Of a stretch of 64,000 nucleotides of DNA, positions 2,589 through 58,422 are shown in pieces; within the stretch, counting starts at the first letter, position 1; each line of letters opens with the position of its first letter. The notes below the pieces were generated by a model. It searched no databases, was not told where the DNA came from, and worked only from the letters and a program-made list of their open reading frames with translations. Position numbers and translations under genes: made by a program. The DNA is from Akkermansiaceae bacterium. Lineage in GTDB: Bacteria > Verrucomicrobiota > Verrucomicrobiia > Verrucomicrobiales > Akkermansiaceae. The stretch covers positions 1 to 64,000 of the forward strand of contig CAJJBR010000014.1 in the NCBI GenBank assembly GCA_905182475.1, in the 5' to 3' direction.

Positions 2589-2692
2589 AAATGAACACGG
2601 ATGAATGGACGCGGATGAACACGGATGAACACGGATGAACACGGATCGGATTCTTCAGTTCTTGCTTCTGGATTCTTGGTTCTGAGATTTGA
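2589..2692. repeat. Compound repeat: decamer array joined to heptad array
   Basis: From 2589 to 2647 a 10-bp unit (ACACGGATGA) is repeated about five times with small changes. It runs straight into TTCT units at 2659, 2666, 2673 and 2680, exactly 7 bp apart. The same head-to-tail order occurs upstream of holA and near 38.75 kb. It lies upstream of rplM. Confidence 0.8.
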
Positions 2693-31768: not shown

Positions 31769-31826
31769 GACTTTATGCCGCCGTGGTTCGCGGCGGGGCG
31801 GGAATGTGGATAGGTAGTCTGGAAAC

Positions 31827-31854
31827 TTCAACTCTCAAAATTCAACTCTCCAAA
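31827..31854. repeat. Heptad array upstream of leuC
   Basis: Perfect alternation of TTCAACT (31827), CTCAAAA (31834), TTCAACT (31841) and CTCCAAA (31848), each exactly 7 bp. It lies in the divergent leuC-holA intergenic region. Confidence 0.85.
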
Positions 31855-31890
31855 ATGGCAGGAAGAGGAACCTCGCATGAGGAAACAGAA

Positions 31891-31985
31891 ACCACGGATG
31901 AACGCGGATCAGATTCTTGTGGCTGAGGTTCTGGATTCTGGGTTCTGACTGTTAATTGAGATTTGAATTTTGAATTTTGAATTTT
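31891..31985. repeat. Compound decamer/heptad repeat upstream of holA
   Basis: Two decamer units (CCACGGATGA, ACGCGGATC) lead into ATTCTTGTGGC and then GTTCTGG, ATTCTGG, GTTCTGA, followed by TTTGAAT units whose TGAA falls at 31964, 31971 and 31978. It ends 18 bp before the GTG start of holA. The order matches the repeats at 2.6 kb and 38.75 kb. Confidence 0.85.
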
Positions 31986-32002
31986 CCAGCTAGGACTCTC
32001 TG

Positions 32003-38719: not shown

Positions 38720-38747
38720 TAAGACTTGGGCTTGTGGGGAAGAGGAA

Positions 38748-38774
38748 CCACGGATGACGCGTATGGACACGGAT
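38748..38774. repeat. Decamer repeat with TTCTTGTGACTT tail
   Basis: CCACGGATGA, CGCGTATGGA and CACGGATCA units run into ATTCTTGTGACTTGGGTTCTGG, as upstream of holA. Just before it (about 38707) is a sequence similar to the AGTGATCAGTGG core seen upstream of lnt. It lies in the 189-bp gap before the next gene. Confidence 0.7.
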
Positions 38775-41018: not shown

Positions 41019-41421
41019 GTGCGCCGCAAAGCGCCAACACCCTCTGGAGTGGGAGACTTCGGCCAGTTTCGGACGCATTCGGGCTGAGAACTTGGCATGG
41101 GAAAAGGTGCAGTCCAACGCAGGAGCCTGCGGGGTGGACGGCATTACGGTAGGACGCTTCGAGAAAGACAGCAAAAGTCGGCTGCTCGTCGTGAATGAGC
41201 ATTTGAAAACGGGCACCTACCGACCCAAGCCAGTCAAACGGGTATGGATCGCCAAACCGCTACTTTGCAGAACTCGGGCTCTTTTGGCTGATGGATGCCC
41301 AAAGTTCTGAAGTGATCAGTCTCCGTAACGGAGTAAACCACTTGACTGGAGAGCCGGATGCGGGGGATCCGCTTGTCCGGTTCGGAGGGGGGAGCGGCGC
41401 AAATCAATGCGCCGTTCCTAC
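41019..41421 (+). mobile_element. Collapsed group II intron with maturase fragments
   Basis: A plus-strand frame encodes the N-terminal part of a group II intron reverse transcriptase (AWEKVQSNAGACGVDGITVG, NEHLKTGTYRPKPVKRVWI). It jumps after AKP, in another frame, to what looks like the maturase end (NRYFAELGLFWLMDAQ), so about 300 residues are deleted. Then comes a domain V-like hairpin at 41351-41383 (GAGCCGGATGCGG, GNRA-type loop, TCCGGTTC) and a domain VI-like stem GGCGC/GCGCC ending in CCTAC. The left edge is placed at GTGCG (41019), the usual 5' consensus, but domain I is missing. It is inactive. Confidence 0.75.
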
Positions 41422-42830
41422 CTCAATCTGCCGATTTCGAAACCTTTGCGGTAGGAGCCTTTGAGCATGGTGTTTGCCTGTTCTGAAAAGTCGCCGGTGA
41501 AGACTTCCTTTTCAGGATCGATCGTCAGGGTTTTTCCTAGGGCGATCATGTTCTTATCTAGGTTCACTTGGTTTTTCTCAAGGTGTTGCATCATACGGCC
41601 TACGGCGTCGTTTGTAGTGGCATCCTTGATCGCGGCTTTGATGTCTTCCGGTTTTGTTGGGGCGCCGAGTTTCCATGAGATGTTGCCGACGTGAGCGAGT
41701 GCGGCAGAGAGATGCCCGTTCTCGGCTCCGTGCGTGTAATCAATTTTCCCGGAGTGGCATGAATCGACGAAGGACTGCATGTGGGATTTTCCACCTTTGA
41801 AGGTCTTAACTTTCTTACCATCTTTATCAAAGACCGAGCATTCCGAATTGTGTCCGCCGGCAAGGTATCCGCCTTCGCATTCGATAATGTTTCCGATCTT
41901 TTGGCCACGGTAGTTATCGCTTGGGAGACCTCGCACTTCAAAGACGATGGGGATTGGGTAATCGAAATAGCAAACCTGCGTGTTGGCACAGGTGCCGTCG
42001 TCTTCGTATCCGAGACGGGCGCCGACGGAAACGACGGAGGCTGGAAGTGCGGGATCGCCGATAAACCAGCGGCAGACATCGAGCTGGTGTGGTCCTTGGT
42101 TTCCAAGATCGCCGTTTCCGTAATCGAGCTGCCAGTGCCAATCGTAATGGAAGCGTTTGCGAGGCACGGGAACCACTTCACGCGGGCCGCACCAGAGATC
42201 GTAGTTTACAGATTTCGGTGGCTCGGCGGCTGGGCCGACTTTTCCGATGGATTTACGTGGCTTGTAGCAGAAGCCTCGGACGAGGGTTGTCTTGCCGATT
42301 TCTCCGGATTTGAGATAATCTGCGGCTTCGTACCATGAAGTTTCGGAGCGGCGTTGGAATCCATGCTGGATGATGGTTTTGTATTTCTCGGCTGCGTTGG
42401 CGAGTTGGCGACCTTCCCAGACGTTGTGGGAAACAGGTTTCTCCACGTAGGCGTGTTTACCGTTCGCAGCAGCTGTCGTGGCGATGAGAGTGTGAAGGTG
42501 GTTGGGCGTGGCGATAATGACGGCGTCGATGTCCTTGGACTCGCAGACTTTGCGGTAGTCTTCGAACTTGGCGACCTTGACGCCTTTCTTCTCTAGCTCA
42601 GAGGCAAATCCGTCGAGGACTTCGGAATCGACGTCACAGAGGGCTACGAGCTTGGCACCTTTGGATTTGAGAACATCGTTTGCGAGGCCTTTTCCACGGC
42701 TATGGAAGCCGATCACGCAGATGCGCAGGTCGCCGTTGGCGCTGCTTGCTGCGCGGACGAAGGAAGGGGTGAGTGCAAATGCACTGGCAAGGGTTGAGGT
42801 GGAGAGGAAACTACGGCGTGTGGTTTTCAT
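41418..42830 (-). CDS. Gfo/Idh/MocA family oxidoreductase, Tat-exported
   Basis: A 470-residue protein with a twin-arginine signal (KTTRRSFLSTSTLASAFAL). The NAD(P)-binding Rossmann part starts RICVIGFHSRGKGLANDV and has VALCDVDSE; the catalytic-type lysine is in YVEKPVSHNVWEG. The C-terminal domain (about 180-420) is typical of exported PVC homologues acting on sugars or cyclitols; the substrate is unknown. Its stop codon TAG coincides with the 3' end of the group II intron remnant, so the original C-terminus may have been altered by that insertion. Confidence 0.92.
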   Translation of the reverse strand: MKTTRRSFLSTSTLASAFALTPSFVRAASSANGDLRICVIGFHSRGKGLANDVLKSKGAKLVALCDVDSEVLDGFASELEKKGVKVAKFEDYRKVCESKDIDAVIIATPNHLHTLIATTAAANGKHAYVEKPVSHNVWEGRQLANAAEKYKTIIQHGFQRRSETSWYEAADYLKSGEIGKTTLVRGFCYKPRKSIGKVGPAAEPPKSVNYDLWCGPREVVPVPRKRFHYDWHWQLDYGNGDLGNQGPHQLDVCRWFIGDPALPASVVSVGARLGYEDDGTCANTQVCYFDYPIPIVFEVRGLPSDNYRGQKIGNIIECEGGYLAGGHNSECSVFDKDGKKVKTFKGGKSHMQSFVDSCHSGKIDYTHGAENGHLSAALAHVGNISWKLGAPTKPEDIKAAIKDATTNDAVGRMMQHLEKNQVNLDKNMIALGKTLTIDPEKEVFTGDFSEQANTMLKGSYRKGFEIGRLR

Positions 42831-51499: not shown

Positions 51500-52454
51500 T
51501 TCTCTGTCAGGGCACTAGGACCACATCGGACGCGGTTACCGAGCGGCTGGAGAAGGAATTTTTTCCCGAGTTCCTCGCGCGTACATCCCTCAATCTCCAT
51601 CACGGAGAGTGGCCAGGTAGAATAGAGGGGGAAATCCTTAAAATCCCTGGTCAAGGGCTTCGCGTTTTCAATCGTCTTCATCTACGTGCTAATTGCCATC
51701 CCGCTAAGGAGTTATACTGGCGCGCATTGGGATTTGTGATTTGGCGCTTCCGAAAACGGCGGAATTTCAGCTTTGAATTTTAGGTCCTCCTCGCTGTAGG
51801 CGAGATGCAACAACAGCATGGGGCTCTAGCCCCATGAACTTCCCAAACCAAGCCCATGGGTGCTGAATGCACGCGGGAAATGCACAACCATCCACCGTGA
51901 CTACAGCACGGGCATTGCCTGGAACATAGTTCATGGAGCTGAACCCCCATGCTGTTGTTGCGCCCTGCCTACAGCAGATTTTTCACAAGAGGTGAAGCGC
52001 GGCGGTATATCTGAAACCGCTGATCATCATGTCGATCATTCCTTTCGGAATCATCGGTGCACTCATGGGACACTACTTGATGGGTATCGATCTATCGATT
52101 CTCTCGGTCTTCGGCATACTCGCGCTTTCCGGTGTGGTGGTGAACGATTCCCTAGTCCTCGTCTGCGCGGTAAACGATCTTCAGGATGAAGGGGAATCCC
52201 TCCTCGAAGCAGTCTCCCGCGGCCGGGGTGAACCGGTTCCGCGCCATCCTCCTCACCTCGCTGACCACATTCTTTGGCCTAGCCCCGCTTCTTTTGGAAA
52301 AGGAAGTCCAGGCGCAATTTCTCAAGCCCATGGCCACATCTCTCGCCTTCGCCACCGTCATCTCCTTCCTGTGTTCATCATCATCATCATCATCAACGAT
52401 GTGCGTAAGGGGTTCAGAAAATACCTAGGTCTGGAAAAGGTGCCGATGCAGTAG
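51500..52454 (+). pseudogene. RND efflux transporter, decayed C-terminal portion
   Basis: Pieces of one RND (AcrB-like) permease appear in order over several frames: AVTERLEKEFFPEFLAR (about 51.52 kb), SLVKGFAFSIVFIYVLIAIP (to about 51717), then after a 290-bp insert PLIIMSIIPFGIIGALMGHY, DLSILSVFGILALSGVVVND, then in another frame [20 protein letters not shown], and finally [16 protein letters not shown]. The upstream two-thirds of the gene is missing. At least three frameshifts and one insertion are present, so it is dead. ORF-track entries here are fragments or shadows. Confidence 0.9.
51718..52007. mobile_element. MITE-like insert with long inverted repeats inside the RND pseudogene
   Basis: The insert separates RND codons ending IPLRSY from those starting LKPLIIM. 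It contains imperfect inverted repeats of about 47 bp (51794-51840 and 51927-51974): CTGTAGGC, GCAACAACAGCATGGGG and CATGAACT occur on one side and their reverse complements on the other. The left arm also holds a small palindrome GGGGCTCTAGCCCC. No transposase ORF is present. Its ends and target duplication were not resolved by eye. Confidence 0.65.
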
Positions 52455-52461
52455 GATAAGA

Positions 52462-52527
52462 ATGGAGCGCGGACTTTAGTCCGCAGGCAGTGCAAAGGTG
52501 GCCTGCGGACTAAAGTCCGCGTTCCAT
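52462..52527. repeat. REPIN-like doublet of inverted palindromes
   Basis: ATGGAGCGCGGACTTTAGTC begins a 27-bp arm at 52462-52488; its reverse complement is at 52501-52527 with one mismatch, around a 12-bp spacer. Each arm contains its own palindrome GCGGACTTTAGTCCGC. This nested arrangement matches REP doublets (REPINs). No RAYT transposase gene is in the window. Confidence 0.8.
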
Positions 52528-55432: not shown

Positions 55433-56830
55433 TTAGAATTCGGTTTCCGTGCCTAGTTCGCCGACGGTTACGTCAGCGCCCGTCTCTTTTAGAGCGGTCT
55501 GGAGAGCCTGGCCGGAGTCCGGTTCACCGTGGATGAGCCATGTTTTAGTTTTTGGTCCGGTGATTCTGCTGAAGTAATCGACGAGTTCCGAGTGGTCTGC
55601 GTGGCCGGAAAAGGAGTCTACGATCTCCACTGCGGCGTTTACACGGAAGGTGTCTCCAAGGATCTTTACTTCCTTTTTTCCATCGCGAATGCGACGCCCA
55701 AGTGTCCTTTCTGCGCAGTAGCCGACGAAGAGGATGGTGTTTTTGGAGTTTTCAATATTGTTCCGGAGGTGGTGCATGATGCGTCCTGCCTCGCACATCC
55801 CAGAAGCGGAAATGATGATGGCAACGCCTTCGAGTTCGTTGAGTGCTTTGGAACCTTTGACTGAGCGGATCAGGGTGAGATCTTCGAATCCGAAGGGGTT
55901 CTGTTTCTCGAATAGTGCGGCATAGACATCCTCGTTAAAGGAATCCGGATGGAGCCGGTAAATTTCGGTAGCGCTGACGGCGAGCGGGCTATCGACATAG
56001 ACGGGGATGGAAGGGAGTTCCTTGGCTAGGAACATTTCATTGAGCACGTAGAGGAGCTTTTGCGTCCGTTCTACGGCGAATGCGGGGATGAGAATTTTGC
56101 CTCCACGCTTCACTGCTTCTTTGATTACGCCGGCGAAATGGGTGTCGAAGCCTGGAGGTGCTTCGTGCTCACGGCCTCCGTAGGTGCTTTCCATGAGGAG
56201 AAAATCGACATCCTTGACAGTGACGGGATCGCGCAGGACTTCACTATCGCCACGCCCGACATCGCCGGAAAAGAGGAAGCGTTTCTTTTTCCCGTCGGCT
56301 TGATCAGTGACGTCGAGCACGACCTGGGCGGAGCCGAGAATGTGCCCGGCATCGAAGAAGGTGAGTTCCACTCCATCGCTGATTTGGAGTGGCCTGTCGT
56401 AGCCGAGTGTAACAAATTGGCGGAGGCTCTTTTCCGCATCCTGCTCGGTGTAGAGAGGCTCGGCTGTGTCGAGACCCTTGCGTTTGCGGTGCTTGTTGAG
56501 CCATTCGATATCGTGTTCTTGGATTCGTGCGGAATCGCGGAGCATGATCTGGCAGAGATCGCGCGTGGCGTGGGTGCTGAAAATGGTTCCGGCGAATCCC
56601 TTTTTGCAAAGGTTGGGAAGATTACCGCTGTGGTCGATATGGGCGTGGGAGAGGACTACTACATCCACAGATGCCGGATCGTAGTGCGGGAAGCAGCAGT
56701 TGATTTCGTAGGCGTCTTTGCGACGTCCTTGGTAGAGACCGCAGTCGAGGAGGATGCGTTTTCCATTTACTTCGAGAAGGTGTTGGGAGCCGGTGGTGGT
56801 GCCAGCAGCACCACAAAATTTGAGTTTCAT
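55433..56830 (-). CDS. MBL-fold beta-CASP hydrolase (RNA-processing exonuclease type)
   Basis: From ATG 56830 the protein has 465 residues. The metallo-beta-lactamase part has SHAHIDHSGNLP and later DAGHILGSAQV and FSGDVGRG. The beta-CASP part has ILIPAFAVERTQ (motif A/B region), IIISASGMCEAGRI and the final SFSGHADHSEL, with WLIHGEPDS as the RNA-specificity end. Relatives are RNA exonucleases or endonucleases like the YsmB/CPSF73 group. It is a single gene; no partner in RNA decay is nearby. Confidence 0.94.
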   Translation of the reverse strand: MKLKFCGAAGTTTGSQHLLEVNGKRILLDCGLYQGRRKDAYEINCCFPHYDPASVDVVVLSHAHIDHSGNLPNLCKKGFAGTIFSTHATRDLCQIMLRDSARIQEHDIEWLNKHRKRKGLDTAEPLYTEQDAEKSLRQFVTLGYDRPLQISDGVELTFFDAGHILGSAQVVLDVTDQADGKKKRFLFSGDVGRGDSEVLRDPVTVKDVDFLLMESTYGGREHEAPPGFDTHFAGVIKEAVKRGGKILIPAFAVERTQKLLYVLNEMFLAKELPSIPVYVDSPLAVSATEIYRLHPDSFNEDVYAALFEKQNPFGFEDLTLIRSVKGSKALNELEGVAIIISASGMCEAGRIMHHLRNNIENSKNTILFVGYCAERTLGRRIRDGKKEVKILGDTFRVNAAVEIVDSFSGHADHSELVDYFSRITGPKTKTWLIHGEPDSGQALQTALKETGADVTVGELGTETEF

Positions 56831-56893
56831 TAGCAATCAGTCTCGCCCGGAGACAAATCGGAGCAATGAAATTCCGTTAGAGAGAAGTTCGAA

Positions 56894-56924
56894 CCACGGA
56901 TTTCACAGATGGGCACGGATAAGA
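56894..56924. repeat. ACGGAT repeat flanking the GxxExxY gene (downstream side)
   Basis: The 31-bp sequence starting CCACGGATTTCACAGATGG and ending CACGGATAAGA is the inverted counterpart of 57284-57314, with 26 of 31 positions identical. It lies just after the GxxExxY stop, on the opposite strand orientation. Confidence 0.8.
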
Positions 56925-56931
56925 GAAAGAG

Positions 56932-57299
56932 CTAAGGGACTAGCGGTTTCCATTTCAAGGTGGCGAATTTAAAATTCACAAGAAGTGCGAGCCGGAGACC
57001 AGTTATTCCTAGGTAGCTAATCATCTGTGCGACGTGTGTATCGTTAAAATCCGAATCCATTTTAGTATCTACGGTTACAAGGCCATCACCAATGAGGTCT
57101 GGGATGAGAGTGTCCACGATCTCTCCAGCGTATCTCACATCGAAACGTTTCTGTTGTTCGACGGTATGACCAGGTGGCGAAGTTCGATCACGAGTGAGTT
57201 CTCATAAGCCTTTTCACTGAGACCGGGTTTCAAAACTTTCATTGAGCACCCGATAATCGACTCCGATTGAGCGCGATACAAAATCTTATCCGTGTCCAT
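56932..57299 (-). pseudogene. GxxExxY protein (PD-(D/E)XK-like), frameshifted
   Basis: From ATG 57299 the first 50 residues include SESIIGCSMKVLKPGLSEKA with the name-giving GLSEKAY motif, then the frame drifts near 57180. In the adjacent frame the rest follows: GHTVEQQKRFDVRYAGEIVD, a metal-site-like IPDLIGDGLVTVDTK and ISYLGITGLRLALLVNF. One missing base (for example RHAGHTVE) would restore a protein of about 122 residues. The family is grouped with PD-(D/E)XK nucleases; its role is unknown. Its start lies inside a copy of the ACGGAT repeat, and an inverted copy follows the stop. Confidence 0.85.
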
Positions 57300-57314
57300 C
57301 AGTGTGATCTGTGG
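57284..57314. repeat. ACGGAT repeat flanking the GxxExxY gene (upstream side)
   Basis: On the minus strand it reads CCACAGATCACACTGATGG, then ACACGGATAAGA. It supplies both the last codons and stop of argA (TTDHTDGHG*) and the start codon of the GxxExxY gene (MDTDKI). It is the inverse of 56894-56924. Confidence 0.8.
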
Positions 57315-58401
57315 TGATTTCAGTGGAGAGGGCTTTCCGGAACACCAGCGAGTCCCTTCCGCTCGCGAGAAGTTGTGCTTTGCGGGTCTCGGGGAGGGTT
57401 TGGGTTTCGGTCTGTGTGTAGCCGGCGCGTTTGAAGAAATCCGCAGCTCTGTTGGTGAGGGCGAAGACGTTGGGGATGTGTTTTTCGATGGCGAGTTGTT
57501 CTGCGTGCTCGACGAGTTCGTAGCCGTAGCCTCGGCCTTCGTGGGCTTGCTTGACATAGAGGCAGGCGACTTCCGCGCAGTTTTCGTCGGGATATTCGTG
57601 GAGTGCCAGGCAGCCGACGACGTTGTCATCGATGGTCATGACGTGGTAGTCCGAGATATTTAAATGGATGTCCTCGTAGTTGCGGGGGACGAGTTTGGTG
57701 CGGCGGACGACGCGGCCTATCATGCCGAGCAGTTCTGGGATGTCGTCTTCGCGGAGCTCACGGATGATTCGATAGCTGTCCGCGTGAACCATGGTGCCTA
57801 CACCTTCGTTGGAGAAAAGCTCATCGACGAGCACGCCCTGCTGGCGCCCGTTGAGGACGTGGACACGGGGGATGCCGCAGTTACAGGCTTCAGCGGCGGC
57901 GAGGAGAAGTTCGCGACCAGAGACGTTTTCCGATTTTAAAACAGATGGGACGTCGGCGGCGCGGATTGCATGCGCGGGCTGTCCGTTGACGAGGATGCTG
58001 TCTTGAAGGAGGGCGATAATTTTTGAAACTCCGACGAGTTTTCCAAAGTCCACAACTTCGGAATCAAGTGGGCCGATCCCTGATGCATCGATGACCGCGG
58101 ACTGCCCGCGCTGAAGGATTTCATTCACTTCACGGGCAGCGTGTTCATCTGAAATGGGCAGGCTAACACGGGCGGCCATGATTTCGCATTCGAGGGTCCA
58201 GTCGTAGAGATCCTTGAGATCGCCGCCGAGGACGCCGAGCACGAGCTTCACGCCGAGATCTTCGAGGACTGCGAGGTCGAGCAAGGTTTCCGCTACCGCG
58301 GGTTCGGGCAAAAGTCCTGCTTCGATGAGGACACAGAACACTTTTCCCCGGAATTGGGGGATGTATTGGAGAACGGCTCGCAAGTCACTTTTTTCGACCA
58401 C
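57286..58401 (-). CDS. argA: N-acetylglutamate synthase (kinase-like plus GNAT domains)
   Basis: A 371-residue protein from GTG 58401 with the ArgA layout. The N-terminal amino-acid-kinase-like domain (about 1-215) lacks the usual glycine-rich ATP motif (RGKVFCVLIEAGLL), as expected for a non-catalytic regulatory half. The C-terminal GNAT domain has YHVMTIDDNVVGCLALHEYP and the acetyl-CoA loop VKQAHEGRGYGYELV. It starts arginine synthesis by acetylating glutamate. The last nine residues (TTDHTDGHG) come from an intergenic repeat, so the native end was probably earlier. A heptad array precedes the start. Confidence 0.92.
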   Translation of the reverse strand: MVEKSDLRAVLQYIPQFRGKVFCVLIEAGLLPEPAVAETLLDLAVLEDLGVKLVLGVLGGDLKDLYDWTLECEIMAARVSLPISDEHAAREVNEILQRGQSAVIDASGIGPLDSEVVDFGKLVGVSKIIALLQDSILVNGQPAHAIRAADVPSVLKSENVSGRELLLAAAEACNCGIPRVHVLNGRQQGVLVDELFSNEGVGTMVHADSYRIIRELREDDIPELLGMIGRVVRRTKLVPRNYEDIHLNISDYHVMTIDDNVVGCLALHEYPDENCAEVACLYVKQAHEGRGYGYELVEHAEQLAIEKHIPNVFALTNRAADFFKRAGYTQTETQTLPETRKAQLLASGRDSLVFRKALSTEITTDHTDGHG

Positions 58402-58422
58402 GCGGCGATCCTATCGGTAAAA

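Follow-up and report, generated by a model that had tools for sequence, protein, structure and literature searches.

The window analysed here is a 64,000 bp stretch of DNA from an Akkermansiaceae bacterium, in which a minus-strand gene of the GxxExxY family (TIGR04256/PF13366) lies between an argA-like gene and a beta-CASP/RMMBL metallo-hydrolase gene. A repeat search shows that the GxxExxY gene is bracketed by an inverted pair of 32 nt arms (56893–56924 and 57284–57315), with 27 of the 32 positions paired (84% complementary) and a spacing of 359 nt; this is the same pair that was originally predicted to match at 26 of 31 positions, counted with one end base fewer. The features of the locus, and two gene-less arms elsewhere in the window, are as follows.

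55433–56836, minus strand: beta-CASP/RMMBL metallo-hydrolase gene, the other neighbour of the GxxExxY element
56893–56924, plus strand: left arm, downstream of the GxxExxY gene, consisting of ACC and three units (CACGGAT/CACAGAT/CACGGAT) at a pitch of 9 and 10
56932–57138, minus strand: 3' piece of the GxxExxY gene, matching PF13366 (E 5e-11, 43 bits, cut-off 22)
57135–57314, minus strand: 5' piece of the GxxExxY gene, matching PF13366 (E 0.001, 19.9 bits), with the GxxExxY-type helix GLSEKAYENSL
57284–57315, minus strand: right arm, on the 5' side of the gene, which repeats the left arm in inverted orientation (27/32 identical) and within which the first GxxExxY ATG lies and the argA frame ends
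57286–58401, minus strand: argA-like gene with a GNAT acetyltransferase domain (PF00583), its 3' end read into the right arm
2596–2646, plus strand: solo arm in the same spelling, a tandem run of CACGGAT units without a gene
38746–38774, plus strand: solo arm ACCACGGATGACGCGTATGGACACGGAT, without a gene

A frameshift, which the original prediction did not mention, splits the GxxExxY gene into the two pieces listed (57135–57314 and 56932–57138); the 3' piece still has QMxxY and, in IPDLI...VDTK, the catalytic D and DxK. The copy in the window, at the 3' end of argA, is a relic with a broken frame, in which the gene has decayed and the arms remain. The original prediction correctly placed both the start codon of the gene and the altered end of argA in the repeat: the first ATG of the GxxExxY frame falls in the right arm, and the argA frame ends there at 57286, reading on as ...SLVFRKALSTEITTDHTDGHG. 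Because the argA orthologues stop earlier (...SLVFEKLL), before the position of the arm, we conclude that the element was inserted where argA ends. The argA/beta-CASP gene pair is syntenic in relatives without GxxExxY, and the space between the two genes is empty in six genomes, contains a solo arm of another spelling in L086, and contains hairpins in L084.

A window-wide scan identifies four inverted pairs in the 64 kb that are as strong as this one and less than 900 bp apart, the GxxExxY arms among them. The inverted-repeat score of the window GxxExxY gene is 19.5, and none of 50 ordinary window genes reaches 12. An Rfam search gives no match at the GxxExxY locus. The motif ACGGAT, which had been described as a dispersed repeat scattered through the window, is present in the arms and is mildly enriched (59 occurrences against 34 expected), but only two true solo arms of this spelling lie within the window, and ACGGAT is one spelling among many of what are element-specific arms. 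Several other repeats were observed in the window. A hairpin with tandem-unit arms (CTGGAAACTTCAACTCTCAAAATTCAACTCTC and its partner) and no known gene within it lies at 31819–31989, and AAAATTCAA units similar to its arms are found near 58420, just upstream of argA; two more inverted pairs are located at 51793–51975 and 52462–52527, the second being palindromic and REP-like (GCGGACTTTAGTCCGC). A group II intron match in Rfam (RF00029, 45 bits) lies at 41349–41427.

The genome from which the window derives contains seven PF13366 genes, all above the cut-off and the window copy included. Three intact copies have the same arm plan in other spellings: the arms of L001 are built of CGCCAAG units, those of L002 of CGCAAAGG-like units (47/52 paired) and those of L003 of CGCAGATGG units (39/41 paired). 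Inverted arms scoring at least 16 within 250 bp are present at 59 of 76 GxxExxY loci of the same order, compared with 15 of 301 control pairs in which the upstream flank of one locus was combined with the downstream flank of another, and at 40 of 74 usable loci from many phyla compared with 22 of 364 swapped pairs, this second set having been collected with a profile of narrower alignment and so leaning to one subfamily. It includes Bacteroidota, Cyanobacteria, Planctomycetota, Chloroflexota, Acidobacteriota, Omnitrophota, several proteobacterial classes and others, and perfect arms are seen in L154, L178 (an acidobacterium) and L180 (a planctomycete). Flanking arms are therefore the rule at other GxxExxY loci, as the original prediction required, with convincing arms missing in about a quarter of the same-order loci and almost half of the wider set.

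The arms consist of three or four direct units of 8–10 bp each, and their outer end is typically ACC or AAC. Autocorrelation at lags of 8–10 bp is 0.56, compared with 0.40 in shuffled arms, and the commonest lag is 9. The median length of the element is 482 bp, with the whole unit spanning approximately 0.42–0.6 kb; in L009, L027, L050 and L074 some arms are oppositely oriented or lie within a full hairpin on one side. In L117, L136, L161, L171 and L178 the N-terminus of the GxxExxY protein is apparently read from the arm, giving HRDTETQR-like peptides, so annotated starts may fall inside the arm. At G018:C45:20735-21098 arms recur about every 108 bp next to a GxxExxY gene. The upstream arms of L031 and L032 differ by the gain or loss of one whole 9-bp unit (ACGCAGAGG) in cassettes that are otherwise near-identical, which suggests slippage within the arms.

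Five GxxExxY relatives of different subfamilies score 128–156 bits against TIGR04256 (cut-off 35), and members of this family retain E, D, ExK and QxxxY together with the GxxExxY helix; E27, D67, E77, K79, Q91 and Y95 are invariant or near-invariant over 45 sequences. The genes are under purifying selection, with Ka/Ks mostly 0.03–0.15. The predicted structure (pLDDT 95.6) is closest to the folds of LHK-Exo, Cas4 SSO0001 and lambda exonuclease (probabilities of 0.9–0.99 with weak E-values of 2e-3 to 1e-2), and sequence searches found no solved homologue. The catalytic residues and the structural model agree with the PD-(D/E)XK membership given in the original prediction, and we infer that GxxExxY is a nuclease of the Cas4/lambda-exonuclease type with a putative catalytic activity. 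No gene other than the GxxExxY frame was found between the arms, and Pfam and NCBIfam searches give PDDEXK_3/GxxExxY only, with no known transposase (DDE, HUH, or serine/tyrosine recombinase). A role as a defence system was considered and rejected, since PADLOC reports weak Cas4 similarity and nothing more.

Arm similarity is correlated with protein identity across 99 loci (Mantel r 0.54), and the correlation persists for protein pairs below 70% identity (r 0.47) and within the order (r 0.61); none of 2000 permutations reaches the observed value in any of the three cases. The most informative location is site M, flanked by two parts of methionine synthase, a homocysteine S-methyltransferase gene and a pterin-binding gene. 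Its flanks are orthologous across much of the genus, and no fewer than four types of GxxExxY gene occur there, each accompanied by arms in a spelling of its own; at this site alone the protein–arm correlation is 0.80 (n=16; 0/2000 permutations). Arm spelling thus tracks the protein and not the chromosomal site. Two of the site M loci (L010 and L192) carry a gene and an arm type otherwise found at another orthologous site, P, which indicates that the cassette – the gene with both of its arms – relocates or is swapped as one unit.

Seven genomes (L190, L193–L196, L198 and L199) have an empty site M, L200 has a solo arm there, and in L191, L192, L197 and L201 internally deleted genes lie between two arms, showing directly how gene-less copies arise. 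Gene-less arms are also dispersed: among 59 genomes, 38 carry the GAG spelling and 46 the GAT spelling, at up to 38 copies; these numbers come from pattern searches covering two spellings in draft assemblies and are lower bounds, and the reversed control pattern gives zero matches. Many are AACC...GGTT pairs 50–100 bp apart. Within the genus, genomes with the gene have a mean of 17.8 solo arms compared with 3.0 for those lacking it (p=0.0014), and solo-arm count correlates with GxxExxY gene number (Spearman 0.53), in a comparison that takes neither phylogeny nor assembly quality into account; a few arms are retained in some genomes with no detected GxxExxY gene. At three hairpin insertions in G015, the arms and the interior are both absent from the orthologous sites of relatives, so the hairpin unit arrived whole; G017, at a further site, carries a differently spelled hairpin in the same place. 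The gene-less hairpins of G015 (L217–L226) have a near-constant length of about 130 bp and unrelated interiors, and because of the latter they were rejected as copies of one MITE. In G025 (L227–L234) arm hairpins are nested in a longer MITE-like repeat whose outer ends are CAATACTGTTCAATTA.

Target duplications were sought at argA, site M, the three hairpin sites and a 94–98% pair, and none was resolved, the empty sites being diverged or refilled: they are 70–98% alike, and the closest (G023 versus G002) holds 45 bp of other repeat-like sequence, with no clean junction. No excision product of the cassette was seen. Among 50,697 phage records there is no GxxExxY copy, and plasmid records with one are few (8 of 72,556); phage or plasmid cargo was rejected on this basis, and the element is chromosomal, like the RAYTs. 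The original prediction had regarded the repeats as possible termini or remnants of a small GxxExxY-carrying element, in a relation like that of a MITE to its parent. The regular occurrence of arms, the orthologous empty sites, the gene-less hairpins and the internal deletions all speak for such an element, and gene-less copies are indeed dispersed in a MITE-like manner, but movement also occurs by replacement or gene conversion at fixed sites.

A second gene family has similar surroundings. Among TIGR02436 genes of this genus, which encode four-helix-bundle proteins, 24 of 30 (L298–L327) have tandem-unit inverted arms scoring at least 16, compared with 7 of 137 swapped pairs, and three such loci are present in the genome of the window (G000:C77:31640, C121:14992 and C46:1773). 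The arm spellings are again element-specific, usually starting with AG (AGACAGAAG, AGTTTTCAG, GGGGCTGGGG, GGTAACTGGT). In the 96.5% identical genome pair compared at L033 (about 2208–2684 in gene orientation) and L060, a four-helix-bundle gene is present in G012 where G023 has only a hairpin of another spelling, of the TCAGTTTTCAG type. The GxxExxY proteins match TIGR04256 only and the four-helix-bundle gene compared with them matches TIGR02436. The parallel has two readings: one kind of element is served by two unrelated proteins, or both proteins rely on a shared host process. A nuclease need not be the essential part of the element, and because this unrelated family has the same architecture we hold the catalytic role of GxxExxY with moderate confidence.

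Taken together, the GxxExxY gene and its inverted arms probably form a single genetic unit, similar to a REP-RAYT element but with a PD-(D/E)XK nuclease as the cognate protein, and this orphan gene is probably part of a small mobile element that has been overlooked. The strongest competing explanation, which we nonetheless regard as unlikely, is that the cassette spreads solely by host homologous recombination from one conserved site to another, as a selfish toxic or hitch-hiking gene, the nuclease acting elsewhere in defence or addiction and the arms being regulatory or protective sites. Cassettes that are 98–100% identical lie in flanks mostly 70–92% alike at the same orthologous site in the species pairs L002/L052, L031/L032 and L070/L071, the last with co-converted flanks of about 110 bp and 300 bp; this fits the prediction of homing or recombination, and ordinary recombination could explain it. 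In L020/L042, divergence is even across the cassette and its flanks. Many elements also occupy constant sites throughout the genus, and the Cas4 similarity seen by PADLOC, weak as it is, would suit a nuclease employed in defence. Non-homologous movement is nevertheless needed to account for the site-P-type gene and arms at site M and for gene-less arm–loop–arm units at many unrelated sites, and the absence of phage copies and near-absence of plasmid copies do not fit a defence-island or phage lifestyle.

It is somewhat less probable again that the arms are owned by another mobile system, for example a RAYT/Y1 or DDE transposase acting in trans, with GxxExxY as a trapped passenger. A search of 39 genomes found Y1 transposases in 38, the G025 arm hairpins lie inside a larger MITE with the CAATACTGTTCAATTA outer ends, and the four-helix-bundle genes are a second, unrelated passenger-like family with similar architecture. 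However, the Y1 genes carry other, palindromic REPs: with Y1/RAYT loci as a positive control, their own REPs were detected at 14 of 24 loci compared with 6 of 113 swapped pairs, whereas GxxExxY arms were found at none of the 24, and the arms were accordingly rejected as RAYT repeats. The arms are moreover specific to the GxxExxY subfamily and track its presence, and GxxExxY is the sole gene between them.

An RNA-level element, in which the arms form a transcript stem cut by RNase III and the protein is RNA-related, is very improbable. Its precedent is the intervening sequence of 23S rRNA, in which a four-helix-bundle (S23) ORF of the TIGR02436 family is bracketed by a terminal inverted repeat (PMC4990558), the same architecture as that found here. 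These sequences resemble the GxxExxY element in being about 0.4 kb long, with one small gene, a terminal inverted repeat and suspected mobility, but the protein is unrelated and the known copies are part of rRNA, from which RNase III removes them as RNA. Mismatches between the GxxExxY arms include 48 that are G-U-compatible on the coding strand and 61 that are not; this lack of wobble bias indicates that the pairing is a feature of the DNA, and an RNA hairpin was rejected as the selected feature. The predicted fold is that of a DNA-exonuclease/Cas4-type nuclease, and solo arms occur with neither gene nor stem partner. Finally, it is hardly conceivable that dispersed repeats happen to flank the gene by chance in a repeat-rich genome: ACGGAT-type repeats are scattered and some swapped controls do score (15/301), but this reading is refuted by the swapped-flank and ordinary-gene controls and the permutation tests, and the arms recur in many phyla, perfectly so in L154, L178 and L180.

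The REP-RAYT-like reading can be set beside several known systems. In the REP-RAYT/REPIN systems (REPtrons) described by Bertels and Rainey in 2011, a chromosomal gene lies between inverted short repeats that are also dispersed as inverted doublets (PMC3116915). The GxxExxY elements share with them a single gene between inverted dispersed repeats, gene-less doublets and a match of repeat type to gene type. They differ in that RAYT is an HUH/Y1 tyrosine transposase and GxxExxY a predicted PD-(D/E)XK nuclease, in that REPs are GTAG-tagged palindromes and the GxxExxY arms tandem direct units, and in that the RAYTs present in these genomes are associated with different repeats. TIRtrons (TIRYTs), as reported by Di Nocera et al. 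in 2013, likewise have a gene between element-specific terminal inverted repeats, with some families dispersed; their enzyme is a tyrosine transposase, and tandem-unit ends do not feature in the portion of the TIRtron description considered here (PMC3733652).

The predicted fold and the motif set E, D, ExK and QxxxY are shared with Cas4, lambda exonuclease and RecB-type nucleases; GxxExxY differs in being a stand-alone protein of about 120 aa with neither cas genes nor an iron-sulfur domain and in being paired with DNA arms. The terminal inverted repeats and the internal-deletion and solo-arm derivatives seen at site M are reminiscent of insertion sequences and MITEs, but there is no known transposase between the arms. 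Homing endonuclease genes spread as a cassette into the same site with co-converted flanks, a signature seen indirectly for GxxExxY at L070/L071; homing genes are not known to have inverted arms or many non-homologous gene-less copies, and GxxExxY has both inverted arms and gene-less copies. Eukaryotic foldback transposons have terminal inverted repeats composed of tandem short direct sub-repeats, as do the GxxExxY elements, but are much longer and have a different transposase. REP-RAYT and TIRtrons thus already provide the plan in which inverted repeats enclose a gene and gene-less doublets are dispersed. For the nuclease class, the tandem-unit arms and the protein–arm correspondence we found no description in the open-access literature, subscription papers being outside the search, and the arm spellings had no match in the same literature.

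A possible mechanism follows the build of the arms. The unit pitch of 8–10 bp suggests that GxxExxY could bind the repeated units with one subunit per unit, about one helical turn apart and roughly on one face of the helix. The protein might then draw the two ends of the element together and nick or cut at the joined arms, and repair of the cut would paste the cassette, or a gene-less arm–loop–arm copy, into intergenic sites; alternatively, homologous repair may copy the cassette from a donor in a homing-like manner. A bolder proposal, for which we judge the balance to fall slightly on the negative side, is that GxxExxY is the founder of a new class of mobilising enzymes: a stand-alone Cas4-like nuclease that recognises and spreads tandem 8–10 bp arrays, its specificity diversifying with the protein. 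This would explain widespread intergenic repeats (ACCACAGAGACACAGAG... and many spellings), and the four-helix-bundle protein, unrelated to it, would have arrived at the same plan by convergence.

GxxExxY proteins are found in many bacterial phyla and have a name without a role, being mentioned only in passing in those parts of the open-access literature that were consulted. If the interpretation is correct, REP-RAYT would have a counterpart that relies on a nuclease, and there would be a cognate enzyme for many of the intergenic repeats dispersed in genomes, a large class. The arms at each locus are themselves its predicted target, and the natural protein/arm pairs would constitute a ready-made specificity code. 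The four-helix-bundle parallel would give the question of the 23S rRNA intervening sequences a new context.
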